Shown here piece by piece: positions 1 to 40,082 of a DNA stretch of 64,000 nucleotides. The stretch lies in the NCBI GenBank assembly GCA_019695215.1, contig JAIBAK010000012.1:1-64000 (forward strand), written 5' to 3'. Source of the stretch: Bacteroidia bacterium (lineage in GTDB: Bacteria > Bacteroidota > Bacteroidia > UKL13-3). The position numbers were made by a program, and so were the translations under genes. Numbering within the stretch: position 1 is the stretch's first letter; each line of letters begins with the position of its first letter. The notes beneath the pieces are model-generated. The model was not told where the DNA came from and did not search any database. It was given only the letters and a program-made list of their open reading frames with translations.

Positions 1-151
1 GGTGCACCACCTCGGTAAGTTTAGGATGCGACAAACCCAGACTTTTACGTACAATCACGGTTACCCCTGCCACTTCTTCGCTATGCAAACAATGCGATAA
101 AATTAAACCGCCAATCATGCCGCTGGCACCGGCTATTAATATATTTTTCAT
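1..151 (-). CDS. NAD(P)-binding epimerase/SDR-like protein (5' part only)
   Basis: Only the first 50 codons lie in the window; the gene continues past base 1. The ATG is at 149-151. The reading begins MKNILIAGASGMIGG, a Rossmann-fold dinucleotide-binding start with the GxSGxIG pattern of extended or atypical short-chain dehydrogenases. It is followed by a hydrophobic strand (VTVIVRK) and the sequence LGLSHPKL, which resembles HTATIP2-like NAD(P)H-binding proteins. The fold is clear; the substrate cannot be told from this fragment. It lies on the same strand as the helicase gene, 84 bases downstream of it, and may be unrelated to it. Confidence 0.7.
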   Translation of the reverse strand, partial: MKNILIAGASGMIGGLILSHCLHSEEVAGVTVIVRKSLGLSHPKLTEVVH

Positions 152-235
152 GCAGGCAAGGTAGGGAATTGATTGTTTACTATAACCTGTAAGTGCTAAC
201 AAATTATAGATTATAAAAGACTTGGACAAAATAAA

Positions 236-3200
236 TTATTGGCTTTCCGACAGTTCAAACTGCAACTCGGGAAGAACAATCTTTACTTCTATCTTCTTAT
301 CATCATCTGTCCAATGAACAATGAAATTTACTTTGGCTTCTTTCAATTCAAAACCGCTTTTCTTTATCTCCGCTAATCGTTCAAGAAATTTCTTTGAGAA
401 CTTTAAAACCAATTCACCTTTTTCGTTTTTGCAACCTTCGTCTGAAATCGTAATAGTATCTCCACTTGTCAATTCGTTTACTCGCTTTTGAACATATTCA
501 AAGTAACCTAAGTTTAAATCTTTATGTGAAAGGTGTAAAGCCAAACCGCTTGGTGTTTGAAATGTGTTGTTGTTTTCAACCCTCTCCATTTCTCCTGTCT
601 TGTATTTATCCAGATAATTTCCATTCAAGTGAATTGTCAATTTCTGTTTTGCTCTTGTCATTGCAACATATAGGAGTCGCTTCTTTTCATATTCTCTTGC
701 ATCAAAGTTTTCAAGAAGTAGAAACACATTGTCAAACTCTTTTCCTTTTGCTTTATGAATTGTAGAAACAAAAATTGTATCTCCGTTTGTGCTGATAAAA
801 TCTTCCAGCTTTGATTCTCTGATAAAAACTTCAAAGTCAGATTTGTATTTCTTCTTCGTATTTGTTCCTTCAAAATCTTTGATAAGGTTGTTACAGATTT
901 CAAACTTTGAACTTGCCTTGTATCTGTCAATCAATTTTCTTTTTGCATTTCCCCAAACATCATCACTGATAATAAATACTTCATCATCCAATTTCAGTTC
1001 ATCCAAAAAGTAACGAACCTCTGCAAGATTATACAAGCTAAAACTGTCGTTGCTCTGAATCAACATGGCTTGGTGTCCGTGCTTTGTCAAAAGCCCTGCA
1101 ACCTGAAATGCTTCTTCATTCTTTTGTGTCAAGATGCAAGTTGTTCCTGAAAGTCCTGTTGAAAGTATATCATCAATTAACGAAGTAATAAGATTTCCGT
1201 TTTTGTAATGCACGATTTTTATTTTTCCGTTGTCGGGTTGATTTGCTTCAATCGGAATTTCTTTGAGGCGTTTACCAATCGTCTTTACAAACTGGTTAGC
1301 GAATGAAACCAAATTGCTTTTGCTCCTATAATTGGTAATGAGTTCATATTTGGTTGCTTTCTTCTCTGTAATGAAGTGCTCCAAATATTTTGCACTGGCT
1401 TTATTGAACTCAAAAATAGTTTGGTCATCGTCTCCAACTGCAATGACTCTCATTTCTTCATTCTTATCTATGAGAATCCTAATCAATTCAAATGCCTCAC
1501 CATTCATGTCTTGTGCTTCGTCTATTACCAAAACTGTTTTGGTAATGCGACTGGCTTCAACTTCATTGTTCTTTATCTTTTCTACTGCTGATTTTATAAT
1601 TGATTCGGATTTATCAATCGTGCCAACTTTTCCCAACAAGTCAAAGCAATAGGAGTGGAAGGTTTTTATATCCACAAAGTTGGCTGCATTTCCAATCAAT
1701 TCTATCAATCGCTTTTTAAATTCTGTTGCTGCTGCTCTTGAAAAGGTTACCATAAGCAATTGGTCATGCTTAACATCTTCCATCAAAAGCAATGAAGCCA
1801 ACTTGTGAACTAAAACTTTTGTCTTACCGCTTCCTGGTCCTGCGGCAACTACAATGTATTGCGATTTCTTATCATCAATAATCTCCCTTTGTTTCTGTGA
1901 TAAAGTATCAAAAAGCTGTTTGTATTTCTTTGGTGTTATGTTTCTTGTTATTTCAAACTCTCTTGCTCCTTTAAAGTATTTGCTTAGAAAAGAGGGAAAG
2001 TTCAACTGAAAATAGTCATCAACAAATTTTAATGCTCCTGTGTAATCGTCTATCATCTTCTTGGCATACTCGCCAACAATATGAATTTGCTGAACCTTAT
2101 GGTCGTAATACTGACTTAGCTTTTGATAATCCTGTTCCTTGTATTGAACTCTGTTGTTCTGTTCAATTCTGTCAATAGTAAGTTTGTTGTAAACAACCAA
2201 AAAGCCACCTTCAATTTTTATCGCTTCAATTCGTGAGAGATAAAACAAAGTATCTTCAATGTCCTCAATGGTTGCTTTAAAAACAAACAAACCTTGTGAG
2301 TGTTTTTCAAACGCTGCTTGTAACTCAAGAACAGAAAATTCAACTAACACTTCGTCTTTCTCTGTTTCACCTTCTTCAAGAATTTTGTTGCTCTTGTCAT
2401 ACATATAACCGACAACAAACTCTGCTAAAATGTGTCGCCTCTCTAACCGTTCTTTTAATTCTTCTTTTGGCTGGCAACTAATAGCCACGATATGATTCTT
2501 TGAGTAATCTTTATTGTGTCGCTTTATCCAATTCTTAATTGCCCAAAAGTTTAAAAGGGTTTTTATTTTGTTTGGCGAAACATCTTTACAACCGCTTGTC
2601 TCTGCTTGTTCGTTTAGTTCTTTAATGTGAAATGATTTTTCCTGCTCGTCAAATAATGGACAAAGAAAATTTTCAATCAGTCCATAACTTTGAGTAATTG
2701 CCAGTGAACGGTTTTTATTCTCTCCCTTTTTGATGAATGCAGTTAAATCTTTTGCATCAGCCAAAATCTTTTCATCACGCAAAAGATTGACAACTGAAAT
2801 TACATTCTTAATATCAATGCCTAAATAATCAGAGATGTAATCAACTCTTGATTCTGCTTCGTCTGATTTTGATTGCTTTCTGCTCTTACTTGAAAAAAGA
2901 TTTCTAATAATTCTTGTTGCAGTAATTTTTTGTTCCTCACTGAATTTTTGCGAACGCATAATTTTATCAATTGCTTCTTGTGCTGTCTTTGATAAAATGC
3001 TGTTGGCAAAAACTCTTGGCATGTTTTGTTTTCGTTTCACATAGCCCGCTTCTTCCAATGCTGCAATTGCAGTCGTTACTCTCGTTTCAATTTCTTTTAG
3101 GTTGTCGTCCCAACCTGCTGCTCTTGCAATTTCCAAAGCAGATTTTTGAACACTGGATTTGAATTTTGTAATGAACTTTATTGCGTTCCAAATTTGCTTT

Positions 3201-5050
3201 ATCTCATGTATGTTGATTTTAGTTTGGTTCAACAAAATGAAGTGTTTGCCAAGGTCTTCCTCGTTAAATAAAACATAACAGTCGGCTGTGATGTTTTCGT
3301 CTCGTCCTGCTCTGCCTGCTTCCTGAACATAGTTTTCAAGTGAATCGGAAATCTCATAGTGAATTACCATCCCAACATCCTTCTTGTCAACTCCCATCCC
3401 AAAAGCAGAGGTGGCAACCATTACTTGAACTTCACCCGATATAAAAGCATTTTGATTTTCCGTTTTCTCCTGACTTTCCATTTTGCCATGAAATGCTCTT
3501 GCATTAAATCCATCTTCCTTTAATCTCTCTGAAAGTTCTCTGGCTCGTCTAGTTCTTGAAACATAAATTATAGTCGGGCAATCTTTCTCCTCTATTAAAT
3601 CACGAACTGCATTGTATTTTTCTTCATCGTCTCCTTTTTCAAAAACTCTGTATTGCAGATTTGTTCGTGTGGCTTTGGAAGGAAAAATTTCCAACTTGAT
3701 TCCTAACTTCTCCTTGAAGTAAGTACAAATGTCTTCAATGACTTTTTGTTTTGCTGTTGCAGTGAAACAAGAAACTGGAATTTGTTCATCAAGGTTTTTA
3801 TTTTCTTGAAGTGATTTTATGAAATCACCGATGTATAAATAATCCACTCTGAAATCTTGTCCCCATGAAGAAAAGCAGTGGGCTTCATCAATTACAAACC
3901 GAATTATTTTTCTGCCTAAGAGTAATTTTTCAGTTGTCTTTGAACGAAGTGATTCTGGAGAAATGTAAAGGATAGATGCTCTGCCGTCTTGAATTCTTTC
4001 AATGGATTTTGCTCTTTCAATCGGGTCAAGTAAACCGTTTATTGTAACTGCTTCTGTGATTTGAATTTTTTCAAGGTTGTCAACTTGGTCTTTCATCAGC
4101 GATTGCAAAGGGGAAATTACAACTGTCAAACCTTTTGCGTTTTCACCTGCCATCAATGCAGGAACTTGAAAAGTAATTGACTTGCCACCGCCTGTCGGAA
4201 ATACTGCCAATAAAGATTTGTTGTCAACTGCTGCCTGAACTGCGTTCTCTTGTAGTGGTTCACCTGCATAAGTTCTGTAAGCATCAAAACCGAAAAATCT
4301 TTTCAAACCCTTGCGAATATCTAACGCTTGAGTGCAGTATTCACAGCCAGTCAAACAAGGATTGTTTCTAAGAAGAAACATTATCCGTTCAACCTTTGGA
4401 AAGTTTTTTAAAACCCACGGTGGAGTTATTGAATAGCGGTTGTTGCAATTTATCAGTGCTAAACAGTAAGCTAATTCAATCGGATGTTCTGAAACGATTT
4501 TTGGAAGGTCTGCATGTTCACATATTACAGAATCAAATTTTTCACGAATTAGTTTTTCGGTTTGTGTTTCGCTGCTTGTGTATGCTATGAAACGGAAAAA
4601 GGAGTGGAACTCCTTTTTGTCTTTTAATAGCAAATAGAAAATCTGTTTTAGTTTATCGTCTGCCTGATTGAAAACAGAAACCTCGTCAAAGAATAGGTCT
4701 TTGGCTTTGATGGAATCGTTAAGCGGATTGTTGGTGTCTTCGGTTTGTAACTTGTCGTCTTTGAGCAAAGCATGATATGGCTTTGTTGGAAACAAAAGAG
4801 GGGATAGAAACAAAGTGTCAATGATGTTAGCAGAATTTATTTTCGCATCAGTAACGGCTTTCTGAATGTATTGTAAGTCGTGGTTGAAAATGTTGTGTCC
4901 GCAAATGAACTCTGTGCCGTTTAGAAACTTAATAAAGTCAGTTATTGAATTTGAATGAAACCGATTGCCGTCACCCTTGACACTTCCAATGTCAAGAATC
5001 TTTCGGCTGTTCGGTTCAATTTCAGTGTCAATAAAGGCGATTGATTTCAT
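236..5050 (-). CDS. Exonuclease-RecQ helicase-UvrD helicase fusion protein
   Basis: A 1604-residue protein with three enzymatic parts. Residues 1-125 are a DEDD-type 3'-5' exonuclease: D8/E10 in FIDTE, N53/D58 in GHNIFNHD, and D112 in NNPLNDS, where the catalytic His of the DEDDh pattern reads Asn107. A CLTGCEYC cluster lies at 232-239. Residues about 265-600 are a RecQ-type SF2 core: Walker A FPTGGGKS, DEAHCFSSWGQDFR, CFTATA, and QEAGRAGRDE at about 576. The cysteine-rich zinc site that normally follows in RecQ is not seen. Residues about 1055-1480 are a UvrD/PcrA-type SF1 core: GPGSGKT near 1071, IDEAQD near 1177, GDDDQTIF, TIHKAKGKEFD and YVAMTRAKQKL near 1465. All motor motifs look intact. 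The start ATG overlaps the TGA of the HNH gene (ATGA), so the two are probably translationally coupled. Base composition is A+T-rich compared with flanking housekeeping genes. Likely role by inference: unwinding and degrading foreign or damaged DNA together with the HNH partner. Confidence 0.88.
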   Translation of the reverse strand: MKSIAFIDTEIEPNSRKILDIGSVKGDGNRFHSNSITDFIKFLNGTEFICGHNIFNHDLQYIQKAVTDAKINSANIIDTLFLSPLLFPTKPYHALLKDDKLQTEDTNNPLNDSIKAKDLFFDEVSVFNQADDKLKQIFYLLLKDKKEFHSFFRFIAYTSSETQTEKLIREKFDSVICEHADLPKIVSEHPIELAYCLALINCNNRYSITPPWVLKNFPKVERIMFLLRNNPCLTGCEYCTQALDIRKGLKRFFGFDAYRTYAGEPLQENAVQAAVDNKSLLAVFPTGGGKSITFQVPALMAGENAKGLTVVISPLQSLMKDQVDNLEKIQITEAVTINGLLDPIERAKSIERIQDGRASILYISPESLRSKTTEKLLLGRKIIRFVIDEAHCFSSWGQDFRVDYLYIGDFIKSLQENKNLDEQIPVSCFTATAKQKVIEDICTYFKEKLGIKLEIFPSKATRTNLQYRVFEKGDDEEKYNAVRDLIEEKDCPTIIYVSRTRRARELSERLKEDGFNARAFHGKMESQEKTENQNAFISGEVQVMVATSAFGMGVDKKDVGMVIHYEISDSLENYVQEAGRAGRDENITADCYVLFNEEDLGKHFILLNQTKINIHEIKQIWNAIKFITKFKSSVQKSALEIARAAGWDDNLKEIETRVTTAIAALEEAGYVKRKQNMPRVFANSILSKTAQEAIDKIMRSQKFSEEQKITATRIIRNLFSSKSRKQSKSDEAESRVDYISDYLGIDIKNVISVVNLLRDEKILADAKDLTAFIKKGENKNRSLAITQSYGLIENFLCPLFDEQEKSFHIKELNEQAETSGCKDVSPNKIKTLLNFWAIKNWIKRHNKDYSKNHIVAISCQPKEELKERLERRHILAEFVVGYMYDKSNKILEEGETEKDEVLVEFSVLELQAAFEKHSQGLFVFKATIEDIEDTLFYLSRIEAIKIEGGFLVVYNKLTIDRIEQNNRVQYKEQDYQKLSQYYDHKVQQIHIVGEYAKKMIDDYTGALKFVDDYFQLNFPSFLSKYFKGAREFEITRNITPKKYKQLFDTLSQKQREIIDDKKSQYIVVAAGPGSGKTKVLVHKLASLLLMEDVKHDQLLMVTFSRAAATEFKKRLIELIGNAANFVDIKTFHSYCFDLLGKVGTIDKSESIIKSAVEKIKNNEVEASRITKTVLVIDEAQDMNGEAFELIRILIDKNEEMRVIAVGDDDQTIFEFNKASAKYLEHFITEKKATKYELITNYRSKSNLVSFANQFVKTIGKRLKEIPIEANQPDNGKIKIVHYKNGNLITSLIDDILSTGLSGTTCILTQKNEEAFQVAGLLTKHGHQAMLIQSNDSFSLYNLAEVRYFLDELKLDDEVFIISDDVWGNAKRKLIDRYKASSKFEICNNLIKDFEGTNTKKKYKSDFEVFIRESKLEDFISTNGDTIFVSTIHKAKGKEFDNVFLLLENFDAREYEKKRLLYVAMTRAKQKLTIHLNGNYLDKYKTGEMERVENNNTFQTPSGLALHLSHKDLNLGYFEYVQKRVNELTSGDTITISDEGCKNEKGELVLKFSKKFLERLAEIKKSGFELKEAKVNFIVHWTDDDKKIEVKIVLPELQFELSESQ

Positions 5051-6021
5051 TTGAATGTGTTATTTCTATGCCACTCCAAATTCTCCCTTGATGGAATAAA
5101 TACAGGTTTCTTTGGCAAAAGTATTTTCTTTCCTGAAAAAGATTGAATTCCATAGTTGCTTTCACTCTCTCTGAAAGATTTAGAAATGACTACCCTATAT
5201 TCCTCATCAATGGTTATTAACCCGCGATCAAAAGCCCTATGCAGATTTGGACATAGGGCAATTCCATTTGTTATTGTATCATCATAACTCACGCTAAAGG
5301 GCACAATATGACACGCATCCACCATGGCTACAGGTGTGATAGCATCAACCCTCATTCCTGATATGCAACAGGTATTATTGTAAATCTTTGGAACCTCTCT
5401 TTTAAACACATTGCCACGTAGATAAATCTCTTCTTCATTTTTTTGTTCAATCAATTTCTCCATCTCCTTCCGGTATTCGAGTGCGCTCTCCTCAAAAATT
5501 TTATTTTCAATTTCACTCAGAACCTTTAGCTGTGCATTATTTGATCCTTTAAAATTAGCCTTGGTTTTAGGAAAATATTCTTCCAAAAGAAATTGCTGTA
5601 AAATGCTTCCAGTCTTTTTATTCTGCATTAATCTTGATAACTCTTCATCTAAAAGCGCATACTCAACAGCTCCATTCAGATTAGAAAAGCTTTTCATAAT
5701 AGCACCCATTTTATCAATATTCTCAAAACCGGGTTTAGGTACTAATGTCCAAAATTTTTCACTTTTCATGTAATAAAACGGGTAGGAAATTCTGCAATCA
5801 TGCTTTGTTTCTACCAGAGCTGTCCAATTTGTACGGAACAATGCAACCAATTCAGCAGTTATGTATACCCTGTTATCTTTAATTAAACTATTCTGATATG
5901 CCTGAATGACTGAAATAAGTAAGATAGGTTTGTGCGGGGCTACCCCACCATGCGACCTGTCGATTCTAAGTCTTTTAAATCGTCTTAAATATTTTTCTAA
6001 TGGTTCCAAGGTATTATTCAA
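5047..6021 (-). CDS. HNH endonuclease with ScoMcrA/SBD-like N-terminal domain
   Basis: 324 residues. The N-terminal half carries SHGGVAPHKPILL (residues 23-35) and YPFYYMKSEKFW (80-91). These match the head region and the YPF-containing pocket of type IV restriction enzymes that bind phosphorothioated DNA (ScoMcrA-type sulfur-binding domain). After a charged helical linker (about 165-200) comes an HNH_2-type nuclease: C218/C219, ACHIVPF with H238, TNGIALC with N252 and NLHRAFDRGLI with H261. The only plausible start is TTG at 6019-6021: an in-frame TGA lies five codons upstream and the first in-frame ATG falls inside the conserved domain. The gene ends in an ATGA overlap with the helicase gene, giving a two-gene operon. 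No dnd or ssp phosphorothioation genes lie in the window, so it would act on incoming modified DNA or read another mark. The nuclease call is firm; the sulfur-binding call is by motif resemblance only. Confidence 0.82.
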   Translation of the reverse strand: MNNTLEPLEKYLRRFKRLRIDRSHGGVAPHKPILLISVIQAYQNSLIKDNRVYITAELVALFRTNWTALVETKHDCRISYPFYYMKSEKFWTLVPKPGFENIDKMGAIMKSFSNLNGAVEYALLDEELSRLMQNKKTGSILQQFLLEEYFPKTKANFKGSNNAQLKVLSEIENKIFEESALEYRKEMEKLIEQKNEEEIYLRGNVFKREVPKIYNNTCCISGMRVDAITPVAMVDACHIVPFSVSYDDTITNGIALCPNLHRAFDRGLITIDEEYRVVISKSFRESESNYGIQSFSGKKILLPKKPVFIPSRENLEWHRNNTFK

Positions 6022-6133
6022 GTTCCGTTTTATTCACTTTCCTACTTAGTTTTTCAGTGGATTCGAAAAAAATTACTTCGTGAAATAACAGATTTTCTAT
6101 TTGGTTTCAAAATTTTAATTGCAATGCTTTATT

Positions 6134-8656: not shown

Positions 8657-8715
8657 ATTTTCAATTTTTAAATTTCTTATACTTCGTTTGAGGAGATCGC
8701 GATGATGTGCTTGAT

Positions 8716-8799
8716 GGAGACTGCTTCGTTCCTCGCAGTGACGTTAACTGATTTAACCCGTCACTGCGAGTCCTGATACTCCGGGACGTGGCAGTCTCC
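8716..8799. repeat. Palindromic interspersed repeat (MITE/REP-like)
   Basis: A 28-base half ending CGCAGTGACG (8716-8743) is followed after 15 bases by an inverted half beginning CGTCACTGCGAG and ending GGCAGTCTCC (8759-8799). The two can fold into a long imperfect stem. The same two half-units, in the opposite order, build the tandem elements at 34599-34978. Noncoding; it sits between two TPR genes. Confidence 0.75.
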
Positions 8800-8811
8800 C
8801 ATTTGTTACCA

Positions 8812-9483
8812 TTATGACAATACCGATGCCTCTTCGTCACCCAGAGATAAGGCCTGCGAACGGTCTTCGTATGCCCCGCGCTCGTCAAGCAAATGACGCT
8901 TACACTCGCTGCGAAGCAAAAATGCTTCCTTGTAAAAGGGTTGCAGCTCAATAGCCATATCTAAATCAGTGAGCGCACCCTGATAATTTTCGCCCGCATA
9001 GGCCAGCACGGCTTTGGTATAATAAAACAGGGCATTGGCAGGTTCCAGTTCAAGGGCAGCCTGTATGAGATGAAAAGCCTCCATCGGTTTGTTTAAAGCC
9101 AGGGCATAACGACTGGCTTCGTTCATATAACCCGCCCGTTTAAAGCCCGATAAACGGATGGCCTGCCGTATATAATGATAGGCGCTTCGAAAATCCCTGC
9201 GCGAAGCATAATACGTGGCCAGCCAGGCATCGGGTTCGTGCCAGCGGGGTTCCAGGTCTATTAACAGTTTTAATTCGGCTACGGCTTCTTTTTCCATGCC
9301 GCAGTACAATTTGCACTGCGCCCATTCAAGCATCAGCCCGTGGTCGCTGGGGTTGGTTAAACAAAGCAACTGGTAGCGGTAAAACGCCTCGGAATAATTT
9401 TTTTGGTCCTTTAACTGGCGGGCTTCCTGCAGCAATGCCGGAGAAAAGCTAACGGCCGGATGAGCATAAGATGAATGTTGCAT
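8812..9483 (-). CDS. TPR repeat protein
   Basis: 223 residues from the ATG at 9481-9483; an upstream alternative reaches 9510 but would run into the divergent control region. The sequence is a series of tetratricopeptide-type helix pairs, for example YSEAFYRYQLLCLTNPSDHG, ALELEPANALFYYTKAVLAY and LTDLDMAIELQPFYKEAFLL. TPR arrays bind other proteins; no enzyme domain or export signal is seen, so a cytoplasmic scaffold is likely. It is divergent from the WYL regulator gene, which may control it. Confidence 0.7.
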   Translation of the reverse strand: MQHSSYAHPAVSFSPALLQEARQLKDQKNYSEAFYRYQLLCLTNPSDHGLMLEWAQCKLYCGMEKEAVAELKLLIDLEPRWHEPDAWLATYYASRRDFRSAYHYIRQAIRLSGFKRAGYMNEASRYALALNKPMEAFHLIQAALELEPANALFYYTKAVLAYAGENYQGALTDLDMAIELQPFYKEAFLLRSECKRHLLDERGAYEDRSQALSLGDEEASVLS

Positions 9484-34404: not shown

Positions 34405-34598
34405 TTCCCCGCCAAAGAAGGCGTATTCGCCCAGAAAATCCTAAGGATACATTCTTTTACCGTATTGTCAGTTGCTGCGTCTGACAAATAATAAGTAACA
34501 TCATTGCGAACCCTCCCCGTCATCTGCCCGTTCGTGCCCTGTCATGTTGAGCGAAGTCGAAACATATGCCCATTCGTGCCCATACCCAAAAAAAGAAA
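34405..34598. other. Gene-free stretch with partial repeat copies
   Basis: No protein-like reading. It holds a partial arm of the palindromic repeat (CATTGCGAACCC near 34503) and a separate short sequence TCATGTTGAGCGAAGTCGAA near 34542 that looks like another interspersed repeat arm. Probably decayed repeat copies upstream of the tandem array. Confidence 0.5.
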
Positions 34599-34978
34599 CG
34601 TCATTGCGAACCCGGTACTCCGGGTGTGGCAATCCTCTTGTGTGTAGCACCATCCTCCCAACAAGGGGACTGCTTCGTTCCTCGCAGTGACGGTATGTTT
34701 TGTTTTTTGTTCCCCCCTCCTCAGTAACGTCATTGCGAACCCGGTACTCCGGGTGTGGCAATCCTCTTGTGTGTAGCACCATGCTCCTTAATGGGAGACT
34801 GCTTCGTTCCTCGCAGTGACGGTATGTTTTGTTTTTTGTCCCCCCCCTCCTCAGTAACGTCATTGCGAACCCGGTACTCCGGGTGTGGCAATCCTCTTGT
34901 GTGTAGCACCATCCTCCCAACAAGGGGACTGCTTACCCGTATAAACGGGGTGTCCCACGTTTCTAATCGCAGTGACGG
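34599..34978. repeat. Three tandem copies of a ~130-bp palindromic element
   Basis: Copies start at 34599, 34728 and 34858 (periods 129 and 130). Each opens with CGTCATTGCGAACCCGG, passes GTGTGGCAATCC and closes with GACTGCTTC...CGCAGTGACG, so the ends are imperfect inverted repeats (CGTCAtTGCGA / TCGCAGTGACG). Copies 1 and 2 are followed by the same GTATGTTTTG spacer ending in a C-run. In copy 3 the right arm is interrupted after GACTGCTT by about 30 unrelated bases. The half-units also occur, in swapped order, at 8716-8799. Any reading frame across the array is a repeat artefact. Confidence 0.85.
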
Positions 34979-35066
34979 TGCATCAGGAGACTCTTACCCC
35001 CTGCCTAAAATTTATTTGCATCTGTGCCAATAACTTTTTACCTTAGCCACGTAAACCAACTCAAAC

Positions 35067-35222
35067 ATGGCTGTTAAACCTATATTTCCCTCCCGCACCC
35101 CTCTCCTTCATTACCCCGGCCGCTCGCCTAAATCAGATATGGATTTATCTCGTGCAAAGCAGGTGGATGTTATCGTTATATTTTTAGAAGAAAAGATGTC
35201 AGGAGGTACAAGTTATGCGTAA
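35067..35222 (+). CDS. Short ORF, possibly a truncated gene start
   Basis: An ATG at 35067 opens a 51-codon frame beginning MAVKPIFPSRTPLLHYPGR and ending SGGTSYA just before the PD-(D/E)XK gene. Weak promoter-like TACCTTAG lies 33 bases upstream. I recognise no family. It could be the intact first part of a chromosomal gene whose remainder was displaced by the insertion that brought in the next genes, or a chance frame. Confidence 0.25.
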   Translation: MAVKPIFPSRTPLLHYPGRSPKSDMDLSRAKQVDVIVIFLEEKMSGGTSYA

Positions 35223-35243
35223 CTCTTAGAAAGCAATTGGACA

Positions 35244-36266
35244 ATGATAGAATCACTATTTACCCGAGCTTTTTCGTATCGACAGCGTGAGAATCACAGT
35301 CCACTTGAAAACTACCTAACCGAAATATTCGCATTTTGCATTGAAGCCGACCTTCAATTCCGACATACCTTTCACAAAAAGCTGCTGAATATTTCTTTGC
35401 CCAAGAAAACATTCACAATTACAACACAGCAAAAATATGTGGGATTTGGCAGGCCAGACATTGAGATAATTTTCGACAACACTGCAATTATTATCGAAAG
35501 TAAGGTAGAGGCTGGAGAAAGATTTAATCAACTTGCTGACTACTGCGAAATTCTCAATCTGCATAAAAGTGAGGAGAACAAACATATCGTTTTACTTTCA
35601 AAATACTACGAGCACCGAGAAATTAACTCCGGTAAGGTTTCTCTACATCTTTTGCGTTGGTTTGACATTTACAACATAATAGACGATTCACACAATGAAA
35701 TTACTCGACAATTGAAAATATTCTTAAAAGAACAAGGAATGGAAAAGATAAAGAACTTCAATATTCAGGATATGCTCGCTATGAAGACAATTCCTGAGAC
35801 AATTACTAAGATGGACGAAGTGTTAGAGCAGTTCAAACCCCAATTTGAAAAGCACTTCGGTGGATTTTCTAAAGATTCCAGCCGCAGCACAAGACTACCA
35901 AGCAGTTGCTATATCAATTATGTAACATTGAATTTTGGAAAGATTCGCTATTGGTTGTTAGTCGGTTTTTTCTGGTGGTGGAATGAGGACATTGAAATAC
36001 CTCACGTAGGTTTATCTCTTGAAATCCCGAAAAAGGACTACAATGGCTCGGAGCTTGAGACTATTTTGGATAAGGAATTGGTTGAGAAAAAGCAATGGGA
36101 GCTTGATGAGTTTGAAACTATCTATTATTACTCCGCTCTTAAGCCTCTGACTGAATTTATTACTCAGGAAGAGGACAATATTCCTTCGATAAAAAAATAT
36201 ATTGACACTAACCTCAGAACTTTGTTGGACTTGCAAGCTAAATATCCTCGACTACTGAAGAAATAG
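35244..36266 (+). CDS. PD-(D/E)XK nuclease superfamily protein
   Basis: 340 residues. The nuclease core is visible: E27 in YLTEIFAF, D72 in FGRPDIEIIF and E85-S-K87 in AIIIESKVEAGE, followed by NQLADYCEIL (helix with a conserved Q). This matches the PDDEXK_4-like pattern of restriction-type folds. The C-terminal half is rich in aromatic residues (YWLLVGFFWWWNEDIE). No methyltransferase or partner gene is adjacent. The gene sits alone in a repeat-rich, A+T-rich patch, typical of horizontally acquired accessory genes; defence or DNA repair are both possible. Confidence 0.75.
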   Translation: MIESLFTRAFSYRQRENHSPLENYLTEIFAFCIEADLQFRHTFHKKLLNISLPKKTFTITTQQKYVGFGRPDIEIIFDNTAIIIESKVEAGERFNQLADYCEILNLHKSEENKHIVLLSKYYEHREINSGKVSLHLLRWFDIYNIIDDSHNEITRQLKIFLKEQGMEKIKNFNIQDMLAMKTIPETITKMDEVLEQFKPQFEKHFGGFSKDSSRSTRLPSSCYINYVTLNFGKIRYWLLVGFFWWWNEDIEIPHVGLSLEIPKKDYNGSELETILDKELVEKKQWELDEFETIYYYSALKPLTEFITQEEDNIPSIKKYIDTNLRTLLDLQAKYPRLLKK

Positions 36267-36656
36267 ATTATACGCATAACAGAGCACTGGCGAGTAAGCC
36301 GGGTTGACGTTGTAATTTGAGCTTATGAATACTATGAAACATTATCTTAGCCTGAAAAAAATCATTCTAATCCCCAACTCGCGCGCTCCCGATTACTATC
36401 GGGGTGCACGCGTGCGTTTGAGTTATCCGGCTTCACCTGTTCATCAATTCTGCCAAAAATATCTGAAACCTATTGTGAGATTGAACATGATCCATGCACG
36501 CATCCTCAGCAAAAAATCAACCACAAGAATTTGCTATTCCCGGTTTTTATCACCAATTTTACCTTACAGTGTGTGGATGTGTTTTTCACACTCTGACTTT
36601 AGCTGCAATGTATTACGACCGTTCCATATTTGACAAATAATACTAAAAACAATAGA
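36267..36656. other. Gene-free stretch with hairpin and decayed ORF remnant
   Basis: No supported gene. It holds the hairpin CCCGAT-TACT-ATCGGG (36388-36403) preceded by CCCCAACT. At about 36530-36590 there is a degraded minus-strand copy of the 45-codon ORF found at 37914-38051: the two share the run TTTTTATCACCA and CAGTGTGTGGATG with the same spacing, but this copy has stops and frameshifts. Confidence 0.55.
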
Positions 36657-37856
36657 ATGAAAATAATTACTGTACTAACTCTTCTCCTTCTTTCGATGAC
36701 AGCTTTTTGTCAATCTAAACAGGACACGACATGGAAGGCGAGACTAAACAAGGTTGAGAATCTATTGATGGACATCAAGAACAATAACTATGACAACGAG
36801 ATTATAAACCTCAAGGACAAACTGGATTTTCAACAAAAGCTAAACGAGCAAACGATAAATAGCATTTCAACTCAACTTGACTCAGCAACATACAATCTGA
36901 CAATATTTGGAATCTTGTTTGCGATCGCTGCAATTGGTCTTGGTTTATATGTTACGTACATTGAAAGAAAGATAGTCCGAATTGGTGAAGAGAATAGGAT
37001 ATTACTAACAAAAAATCAGCAAATCAAAGACGATGTTGAAGCATTAAATAAATTGATTCAAAGTGACATTTACGGACTATTTCTGAAAATCAAACGGGAA
37101 GAATCAGTTCATACAATTGAACGTTTGGTAAAAGTTCCTAAGGACATTTCAAATGTATGCGATACATTACTTTCAAGAGAGCTTCATGAGGAAGATTTTG
37201 CAAAACTTAAACAAGCATATTTAAATCTTCCTGACAAGAAGGAAGGAGATTATGGGAATTATTATTTGACTGTTTTCTTCCAGCACTTTCTTGGACAATC
37301 GTTACGAGACGAAATTTTGCGAGTGGATATTGCAGAATTCATTCAGTTAGGTATAAGTGCAGCATTTGAGAACGACATAGTCAAGTCAACTTTAGATTTT
37401 ACAGGAGCGCTAGTGGATAAGGGAATTCAAGAATTCAAATCAGAGATAAATCTATTTTTTAAAGGATTAACAAACTCAAAATACAAGAATTATCTTCCAG
37501 TATATGAAGTAATTTTTGACACCCTGAAAACAAGGAAGAATAGATTTGAAATGTTTAGTTCTATTGATTCTGTGACTGATAATCGTATGGCTAAAATTGA
37601 ATTTGGGAACATGTTGGCTAATAAATATTCTCTTGATAATCCAACTGAATCAGAGCAACTGGCATTCGCTGAATTAAAAGAGCTGACAATCGCTCAAGAA
37701 AAAACGGAAGAAGAAGCAAGACAAAAAGCCGAAGAAGAAAAGAAGAAACAAGAGGAAAGACAAAGGCAACAAGAAGAAAACAGAAAGAAAAGACAAGAAC
37801 AACAGAGAAAATTAGCTGAACAAAGGAAAATTTCTAACGATGACAAACATGCATAA
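36657..37856 (+). CDS. Coiled-coil membrane protein of unknown function
   Basis: 399 residues from the ATG at 36657. A signal-like segment (MKIITVLTLLLLSMTAFCQ) is followed by a helical region, one transmembrane helix (about 85-105, TIFGILFAIAAIGLGLYVTY), a long helical domain and a highly charged Glu/Lys/Arg/Gln tail (EEEARQKAEEEKKKQEERQR and onward) that would form a long coiled coil. No known domain was recognised. Base composition is A+T-rich like the neighbouring nuclease gene. It lies between two copies of a hairpin-associated small ORF. Confidence 0.65.
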   Translation: MKIITVLTLLLLSMTAFCQSKQDTTWKARLNKVENLLMDIKNNNYDNEIINLKDKLDFQQKLNEQTINSISTQLDSATYNLTIFGILFAIAAIGLGLYVTYIERKIVRIGEENRILLTKNQQIKDDVEALNKLIQSDIYGLFLKIKREESVHTIERLVKVPKDISNVCDTLLSRELHEEDFAKLKQAYLNLPDKKEGDYGNYYLTVFFQHFLGQSLRDEILRVDIAEFIQLGISAAFENDIVKSTLDFTGALVDKGIQEFKSEINLFFKGLTNSKYKNYLPVYEVIFDTLKTRKNRFEMFSSIDSVTDNRMAKIEFGNMLANKYSLDNPTESEQLAFAELKELTIAQEKTEEEARQKAEEEKKKQEERQRQQEENRKKRQEQQRKLAEQRKISNDDKHA

Positions 37857-37888
37857 AACTGATTTTAATTGGCATCGTTTCCCCAACT

Positions 37889-37911
37889 AATCCTCGTTTG
37901 CAACGAGGATT
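37889..37911. repeat. Perfect 10-bp hairpin next to small ORF
   Basis: AATCCTCGTT-TGC-AACGAGGATT, perfect arms, beginning 2 bases past the stop codon of the minus-strand small ORF and preceded by CCCCAACT, as at the hairpin 36388-36403. It could be a REP-type end or a transcription stop for the small ORF. Confidence 0.6.
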
Positions 37912-37913
37912 TC

Positions 37914-38051
37914 CTATTCCAGGCGTTTTAAACGCTCTCTTTGCCTTAGCGCAATCCAATCAAAATAATCAACAACAATACCTTGCTTTTTCCAATTTTT
38001 ATCACCAGTTTTACCTTGCAGTGTGTGGATGAGTTTTTTGTTATATGCCAT
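37914..38051 (-). CDS. Small 45-residue ORF, hairpin-associated
   Basis: ATG at 38049-38051, TAG at 37914-37916. The product starts MAYNKKLIHTLQGKTGDKNW and ends LRQRERLKRLE. It has natural codon structure and a basic, helical C-terminus. A decayed copy lies at about 36530-36590, and both are tied to a CCCCAACT-hairpin block, so it is probably part of a small mobile or repeat element. It may be an intact mini-gene or an N-terminal remnant of a longer one. Family unknown. Confidence 0.4.
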   Translation of the reverse strand: MAYNKKLIHTLQGKTGDKNWKKQGIVVDYFDWIALRQRERLKRLE

Positions 38052-38114
38052 TTTAGAACGACACCACAACCTTAAACCAAACAATTAAAAATCAAACGAC
38101 ACGTTAGACAAATT

Positions 38115-39410
38115 ATGATGACCAGAGCAAAAAAAATGCAATTTGTTTTATTGTCGATTTTAACTTTTGCCGTTTTACAAGATAGTATTGCTTGCAGTGG
38201 ATATAAAATAACGATAGGCAACAGAACATTTTTTGGAAGTAACCACGATGCCTGGTTTACAACACCTCATATTTGGTTTGAAAATGTAACTACTGGTAAG
38301 TATGGTGCAGCATTTACAGGAGCCAGATTTGACGGTGAAAACGGATATGCTCCGCAATCGGGAATGAATGAAACGGGTTTAGTTTTTGAAAGACTTGTTG
38401 CCTACCACCCGGCACAGGAAAATTTTACAAACAGAAAGACAATCTCCAACCCGACAAAGTACTTAAAGGACATTCTACACACTTGCAAATCGGTTGAAGA
38501 AGTTAAAGAATATGTGAGCAAATACTACCACAGTTATTTTATTGAAGACGTTTTTATTTACGTTGACAAATCGGGCAAATATCTGATTGTGGAGCCTTAC
38601 ACTTTGACCATAGGAAATGACCCGACCTATGTGATAGCAAACTTTTGTCCTTCTATAACACCGCCACAAAATGCCAATAAACTTGACAGATACCAAAAAG
38701 GAGCAGCATTTTTAAAAAATGGTATTGACACTACACTTGAGTACTGCACCGCCTTGTTGGATACCATGCACGTTTGCAGAAAAAAAATTGGTGACGGAAC
38801 TTTGCTTTCTTCTATTTGGGACCTAAATAACGGGACCGTGAACCTGTTTTTTTATCACGACTATAAGAAAACCGTTCAATTCAACCTAAATGAAGAGTTA
38901 AAAAAGGGCGACCACATGATTGCGGTAGAGACACTATTTCCGCATAACCCTGAATTTGAAAAATTACGTAATTTCAAAACCCCAAAAGACAGTAATTTAA
39001 TAGGAGTATTTATAGTTGCTTGTGCCGGATTTTTTTTACTGACTTCTGTATTTTTTCTAATCCAATATTTCAGACCAAAAGAGAATAAAAAGTATTCTTA
39101 TGTTCAATTAGTGCTGTTTCCAATGGGTTTAACCTTGTTTTATTATATGATTGTATTAAGCGGCAGTGTGAATGTTTTCTACTTTGCTGCACCTTACAAA
39201 GACCCGACAAATATTTTTGTAAGTTTGACTTCATATTTACCGTTTTTAATACTACTTCTCCTACTGCCTTTTGCTGTGATTAATTACAGATTATTAAAAG
39301 AGAATAGTTGGAGTTTCATAGCCAGGGGATTATTTACCTTAAACAATCTTACGTACATTATTCTCATTGGACTATTTGCGTATTGGAGATTTTATGACAT
39401 TCTCAACTAA
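38115..39410 (+). CDS. Linear amide C-N hydrolase (Ntn type) with C-terminal membrane domain
   Basis: 431 residues. After a signal peptide the mature protein would begin at Cys27 (SIA/CSGYKITIGN), the expected N-terminal nucleophile of choloylglycine/penicillin-acylase-V-like Ntn hydrolases. Next come FFGSNHDAWF and MNETGLVFERL, matching the family's active-site Asp and the following substrate-pocket strands. From about residue 295 there are four membrane helices (for example NLIGVFIVACAGFFLLTSVF), which is unusual for this enzyme family. Likely an exported, membrane-anchored amidase; substrate unknown. Confidence 0.78.
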   Translation: MMTRAKKMQFVLLSILTFAVLQDSIACSGYKITIGNRTFFGSNHDAWFTTPHIWFENVTTGKYGAAFTGARFDGENGYAPQSGMNETGLVFERLVAYHPAQENFTNRKTISNPTKYLKDILHTCKSVEEVKEYVSKYYHSYFIEDVFIYVDKSGKYLIVEPYTLTIGNDPTYVIANFCPSITPPQNANKLDRYQKGAAFLKNGIDTTLEYCTALLDTMHVCRKKIGDGTLLSSIWDLNNGTVNLFFYHDYKKTVQFNLNEELKKGDHMIAVETLFPHNPEFEKLRNFKTPKDSNLIGVFIVACAGFFLLTSVFFLIQYFRPKENKKYSYVQLVLFPMGLTLFYYMIVLSGSVNVFYFAAPYKDPTNIFVSLTSYLPFLILLLLLPFAVINYRLLKENSWSFIARGLFTLNNLTYIILIGLFAYWRFYDILN

Positions 39411-39481
39411 CAGACAGAGCAGAAATGAAAACGCGCTATAACCCGAGTTTGTATATCGAAATTCAATTATAAAAAGTAAAT

Positions 39482-39961
39482 ATGAATCCGACAATTTTTG
39501 TAAAAATGGTACTCGATGCCTGGCATTTGAAAATAAAAGAGGCCAATGATATTTTTAACCGGGTATCGGATGAACAGCTGCTGCAGGAAGTGGCTCCCAA
39601 CCGCAACAGGGGTATTTACCTGCTGGGGCACTATACGGCCACCCACGATGCCATGTTGCCCCTGCTTGGTTTTGGAGAGCGCATATACGCTCATTTAGAC
39701 GATGCCTTTCATGATAACCCCGACAGGGTTAAACCCATTACTGTCTCGGCACCCGATTTAAGGGCCGGCTGGAAAAACATCAATGCGGTGCTGGAAGATC
39801 ATTTTAATAAAATGTCGCCCGAAATGTGGTTTACCAAACACAAGGCCATCTCGGAGGAGGATTTTAAAAATCAGCCGCATCGCAACAAGCTGAATGTAAT
39901 CATTACCCGAACCAATCATTTAGCCTACCACAACGGACAATTAATCTTTCTTTTAAAATAA
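39482..39961 (+). CDS. DinB family protein
   Basis: 159 residues with the four-helix DinB/YfiT layout. Candidate metal ligands are the histidines in LLGHYTATHDAML and in the C-terminal TNHLAYHNGQLIFLL. Members bind divalent metal and some act as thiol-dependent transferases; the specific reaction is not predictable. Base composition returns to that of the backbone here, marking the end of the accessory patch. Confidence 0.85.
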   Translation: MNPTIFVKMVLDAWHLKIKEANDIFNRVSDEQLLQEVAPNRNRGIYLLGHYTATHDAMLPLLGFGERIYAHLDDAFHDNPDRVKPITVSAPDLRAGWKNINAVLEDHFNKMSPEMWFTKHKAISEEDFKNQPHRNKLNVIITRTNHLAYHNGQLIFLLK

Positions 39962-40082
39962 TCGGGCAGCTGTTAAAACACCGGGCAGCAGGACGTTTCA
40001 TCCTTTACTTATCACTCCCATACAATCCTGTTGTTTTCCTGATTTTATAGATTATCTTCGTTTTACTCTAATTTAATTGTTT

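Follow-up and report, generated by a model that had tools for sequence, protein, structure and literature searches.

What do two overlapping genes at the very start of a Bacteroidia bacterium contig (GCA_019695215.1, JAIBAK010000012.1) do, and do they do it together? The stretch analyzed here (the window) comprises the first 64,000 nucleotides of that contig, and an examination of its letters and open reading frames (the sequence-only reading) had proposed that the pair is a restriction-and-degradation defense against modified foreign DNA. That reading had both open reading frames right, along with their strand and their ATGA overlap:

236..5050, (-) strand: helicase gene, 1604 amino acids (aa); probable DEDD exonuclease aa 1-125 (motifs only), RecQ aa ~245-620, UvrD-type helicase aa ~1045-1480, C-terminal extension
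5047..5050, (-) strand: ATGA stop/start overlap of the two genes, 4 nt
5047..6021, (-) strand: gene for an HNH nuclease with a sulfur-binding domain (SBD-HNH), 324 aa, TTG start; SBD aa ~5-160, N-terminal, HNH aa ~200-280, C-terminal
6022..6133, (-) strand: intergenic stretch upstream of the SBD-HNH gene, with no recognizable dndC remnant

We favor, at a probability of roughly 60%, a two-gene defense operon, with one gene for a type IV restriction enzyme that depends on phosphorothioate (PT) and the other for a probably stand-alone DNA-degrading helicase, which might also digest the ends made by the HNH enzyme. The pair occupies the A+T-rich block noticed earlier, with 34-38% G+C in positions 1-6000 versus 42-47% across the next 5 kb. 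Because base 1 of the window is the start of the contig, 235 bases away from the helicase stop, a third gene beyond 236 is possible in this genome; no constant third gene was found across the other pair loci.

The nuclease and the helicase

The 324-aa protein contains an HNH_2 domain that scores above the Pfam cut-off, and the solved structure nearest to it in sequence is SBD-Hga, a sulfur-binding domain (8h0l, E=2.7e-14). The same structure, SBD-Hga on PT DNA, is the top match in the Protein Data Bank (TM score 0.87 by target length) for a model built on 61 homologs (mean model confidence, pLDDT, 94.7), so that the original guess of an SBD-like protein is confirmed by both sequence and fold. 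Further matches of the model include VcaM4I and TagI, both modification-dependent HNH enzymes, together with the SBDs of SprMcrA and ScoMcrA. The sulfur-pocket residues H30-K31 and P81, as well as the HNH-motif residues H238, N252 and H261, are invariant among the 61 homologs, and the former agree with the published sulfur-recognition motifs of SBDs, HK/HR and YP (PMC7461809; PMC7470945). Given the SBD fold combined with an HNH domain with invariant catalytic residues, this protein is very probably a PT-dependent type IV restriction enzyme, similar in principle to EcoWI, which likewise combines an SBD with an HNH domain and has been reported to restrict PT plasmids in vivo (PMC7461809; PMC7470945). 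The SBD would dock on a PT linkage of incoming DNA and the HNH domain would cut nearby, whereas the host, which has no dnd genes, would not carry the PT mark. PT-protected restriction of the DndI/SspE kind is ruled out by the lack of dnd genes in the host along with the lack of any DUF262 match to the HNH protein in the Pfam scan, an N-terminal DUF262 being the defining feature of DndI and SspE (PMC11662687).

The helicase protein combines a RecQ-type DEAD/Helicase_C unit (aa 265-583, above the Pfam cut-offs; 271.3 bits with the RecQ family model TIGR00614, cut-off 219.8) with a UvrD helicase (aa 1051-1475; Pfam UvrD N and C domains at 110.5 and 79.3 bits, above cut-off), and a model of aa 1-1045, of modest confidence (mean pLDDT 74), matches RecQ structures. 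RecQ and UvrD belong to different superfamilies (SF2 and SF1, respectively), as the sequence-only reading had it; that they are opposite, as it also stated, is not established, both moving 3'-5' by family knowledge. The N-terminus is probably a DEDD 3'-5' exonuclease, judging by motifs that are invariant in 25 homologs (D8/E10, GHNxxxHD58, DTL, PYHxLxK and NPxND). Four cysteines located between the exonuclease and RecQ parts (C177, C232, C236 and C239) are likewise invariant in these homologs and might form a zinc or iron-sulfur site. Together, RecQ, UvrD and the probable exonuclease would most likely make up a stand-alone DNA-degrading defense enzyme, placed behind the HNH gene and made from the same message, that could in addition unwind and degrade DNA ends created by the HNH nuclease. 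Among the 25 best matches in a PADLOC 2.0 search, no system (Dpd, Gabija, PsyrTA) covers most of the helicase, the matches being confined to RecQ or UvrD stretches; within that set, a known PADLOC system is ruled out.

Recurrence of the pair and the slot behind the nuclease gene

We surveyed the neighbors of 80 relatives of the HNH gene (loci are numbered L, genomes G). The helicase gene directly follows and overlaps the HNH gene in seven loci, namely, L081, L082, L086, L090, L104, L107 (the same locus as L037, in G016) and L108; in L081 and L082, the contig stops within the helicase gene. Together with the window and L199 (G739), the pair is present in at least nine loci, from Flavobacterium, Taibaiella, Chitinophagaceae, Marinoscillum, Roseivirga and other Bacteroidota, with an overlap of 4 nt in eight of the nine and about 13 nt in L081. 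The two genes thus are recurrent neighbors, a point on which the sequence-only reading had staked its proposal. In both the HNH tree and the helicase tree, the paired state is scattered such that at least five changes are needed in each.

Elsewhere, the position directly after SBD-HNH is occupied by other defense systems: a complete Wadjet (JetABCD) in L116 (3939-11463; 4-nt overlap) and L098 (9989-17581), Hachiman (HamA and HamB) in L093 (8838-13300) and a SauUSI-like type IV enzyme in L097. Because this slot can hold Wadjet, Hachiman or a SauUSI-like enzyme, we read the helicase as an exchangeable and probably autonomous second defense gene, so that a single docking slot would serve all of them. 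The parsimonious reading of these gene orders is that the exonuclease-RecQ-UvrD protein is a defense enzyme in its own right that uses the same slot, with cooperation with the HNH nuclease possible. PDC-S41, a candidate defense gene, directly follows the pair in L090 and directly precedes the HNH gene in L083. In L036 (9470-16764), SBD-HNH is followed by a four-gene operon that includes a 1235-aa SMC-like protein with a weak match to Wadjet models. The right flanks of several SBD-HNH loci (L080:11175-13829, L086:6242-8586, L036:16885-20000) share Bro-N and RmuC, in some cases with a 102-aa gene and in some near dndA, as in a shared hotspot.

The pair could alternatively be one machine, in which the HNH protein marks or cleaves PT DNA and leaves its degradation to the exonuclease-RecQ-UvrD protein, the two forming a complex or an obligate relay. 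Such a machine would fit the translational overlap conserved in nine loci of several families, the complementary activities of the two proteins and the association repeated in both gene trees, but we consider it unlikely because the helicase adjoins just 7 of the 80 SBD-HNH loci, 17 of the 19 Bacteroidota genomes that carry the helicase lack the HNH gene, and the same slot houses autonomous systems. An obligate pair is ruled out by the solo helicases and solo HNH genes. No HNH remnants, which would be a sign of lost pairs, were found upstream of the solo helicases. The proposal of a defense against modified foreign DNA is well supported for the HNH protein, for which the modification can be specified as backbone phosphorothioation. 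A single cut-and-degrade machine could only be inferred, most helicases and SBD-HNH genes being apart and the slot being shared with autonomous systems.

That the two genes are usually apart and mix in both trees could also mean that the HNH protein is a PT restriction enzyme with the helicase downstream by accident; however, chance is not expected to yield the same gene order, strand and overlap at nine loci, and we regard fortuitous neighborhood as very improbable. The helicase itself is present in 5 of the 64 genomes in the family and 15 of the 395 in the phylum, and solo copies are found also on plasmids of Bacteroides and Aliarcobacter and among the contigs of a viral collection. Both RecQ and UvrD are helicases with classical roles in repair, and the occurrence of the fusion alone in varied neighborhoods would suit a WRN-like enzyme that mends host breaks or limits damage by the HNH nuclease rather than one involved in defense. 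Its patchy distribution, its carriage on plasmids and its appearance in a slot that Wadjet and Hachiman also occupy argue against a repair function, which appears improbable. No published account of the pair, of RecQ-UvrD defense fusions or of an SBD with Wadjet was found in the literature covered, which left out subscription papers and preprints.

dnd remnants beside SBD-HNH genes

All HNH loci were compared with the intact dndC-dndD-dndE of a relative, G019. In 19 of the 80 loci, dndC or a part of it lies directly upstream of the HNH gene on the same strand, and inspection added three junctions, in L080 (a 17-codon remnant), L036 and L199. About a quarter of the SBD-HNH relatives immediately follow dndC or what is left of it, and dndD is missing or truncated there:

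First half of these loci: L036, L078, L080, L081, L092, L098, L101, L106, L112, L115, L117
Second half of these loci: L120, L123, L126, L128, L132, L134, L141, L144, L152, L153, L199

The remainder of dndC ranges from full length down to about 17 codons, and none of the junctions has an intact dndD beside it. Only C-terminal pieces of dndD, followed by dndE, are present in L126, L128, L144 and L153 (three of these confirmed with TIGR03185); in L092, L106 and L134, the HNH gene is flanked by dndC and dndA, both dndD and dndE being absent, and L123 is too short to judge. The helicase pairs in L081 and L199 come after the first 50-60 codons of dndC, unlike the window, where no dndC remnant is recognizable upstream of the HNH gene. 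In the SBD-HNH genomes of the 80-locus set, nearly all dndC genes above the family cut-off adjoin the HNH gene, the exceptions being L118 (in a neighboring cluster on the opposite strand), L137 and L130. An intact dndC is absent from all nine pair genomes (L081 and L199 have fragments only), and in the seven of them searched for dndD, none was identified beyond weak matches. No match to DndC or DndD was found in the window genome (G000, 90% complete) or in G016; Ssp genes were not searched separately.

The cutter genes appear to have taken the place of PT-modification genes at the same locus, a pattern suggestive of bacteria changing from carrying the PT mark to attacking it. Given that dndD is required for PT modification (PMC8569181), the dndC-HNH loci should be PT-negative, as expected if the HNH enzyme attacks PT DNA. 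On repeated occasions, related SBD-HNH genes would have displaced dndD from PT-modification operons, in many cases bringing along or picking up another defense cassette. We tentatively propose, with the odds somewhat short of even, that SBD-HNH genes act as mobile cassettes against phosphorothioation, which land in dnd operons, eliminate dndD and turn a PT-marking cell into a PT-attacking one, accompanied by a swappable second defense system, of which exonuclease-RecQ-UvrD would be an undescribed autonomous member. The tree is compatible both with repeated insertion of SBD-HNH and with repeated erosion of an ancient dnd-linked state.

Fewer than 3.6% of such enzymes have been found near dnd genes, with mutated clusters offered as one explanation (PMC7461809), and HNH enzymes with wHTH/SBD and SRA domains have been described downstream of dnd modification genes (PMC10853773), in an architecture that differs from SBD-HNH here. 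Within the same literature coverage, we found no report of recurrent dndD replacement by SBD-HNH. The patchy distribution of DNA phosphorothioation has been described as an ecological paradox (PMC8569181). The substitution of sulfur-reading nucleases for dndD at the same locus would offer a concrete, testable route to the loss of phosphorothioation.

Several observations weigh against the favored operon reading. The HNH protein scores 109.7 bits over its whole length with NCBIfam NF045808 (PT-DNA_restrict, EcoWI-type), below the cut-off of 180, and we therefore place it in a branch separate from the EcoWI-type model. No significant exonuclease profile match was obtained for the helicase N-terminus, the best ones being weak (E=0.21 with exonuclease chains, E=0.012 with DNA_pol_B_exo1). 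Of the three activities first assigned to this protein, RecQ and UvrD are borne out by Pfam and TIGR00614, and the exonuclease is backed by the conserved motifs. Solo helicases are not always near defense genes, which leaves some probability to a repair role. G019, which carries a solo helicase, has intact dndC and dndD. Finally, of 395 evenly sampled genomes, 17 had dndC and 26 had SBD-HNH, with one genome shared against about 1.1 expected by chance; genome-level avoidance between the two is not significant in this sample.

Relation to known systems and other features of the window

Like EcoWI, SprMcrA and ScoMcrA (the last with an extra SRA domain), the window HNH protein has an SBD with a sulfur pocket, a C-terminal HNH domain and a host without dnd modification, but it is co-translated with the exonuclease-RecQ-UvrD helicase and, being below the NF045808 cut-off, belongs to a different branch. 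The helicase shares with RecQ/WRN-type helicases a RecQ core above the family cut-off and an exonuclease-like N-terminus, and differs in the addition of a complete UvrD-type SF1 helicase, its length of 1600 aa and the four invariant cysteines. The pairing would join a nuclease of a known, sulfur-reading type to a novel helicase with three activities, a candidate stand-alone defense enzyme. The IscS-DndBCDE-DndI and SspABCD-SspE systems similarly tie an HNH nuclease to DNA phosphorothioation; however, they sense PT through DUF262, depend on PT modification of the host and target phage DNA that lacks it, whereas the window pair has an SBD, a host without dnd genes and PT-modified DNA as its expected target.

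In the DpnI/DpnII cassettes, a modifying system and an anti-modification nuclease exchange at one locus. SBD-HNH in place of dndD resembles such an exchange, but involves backbone sulfur rather than adenine methylation, and leaves deletions and remnants rather than clean cassettes.

A second A+T-rich block of the window (35000-40000) contains an open reading frame for a PDDEXK_4 nuclease (35244-36266, (+) strand), a possible further defense gene. The open reading frames 34501-34923 and 8661-8951 look spurious; the former is built from a repeated peptide (HCEERSS...GLPHPEYRVRNDV) and is probably a dispersed DNA repeat.
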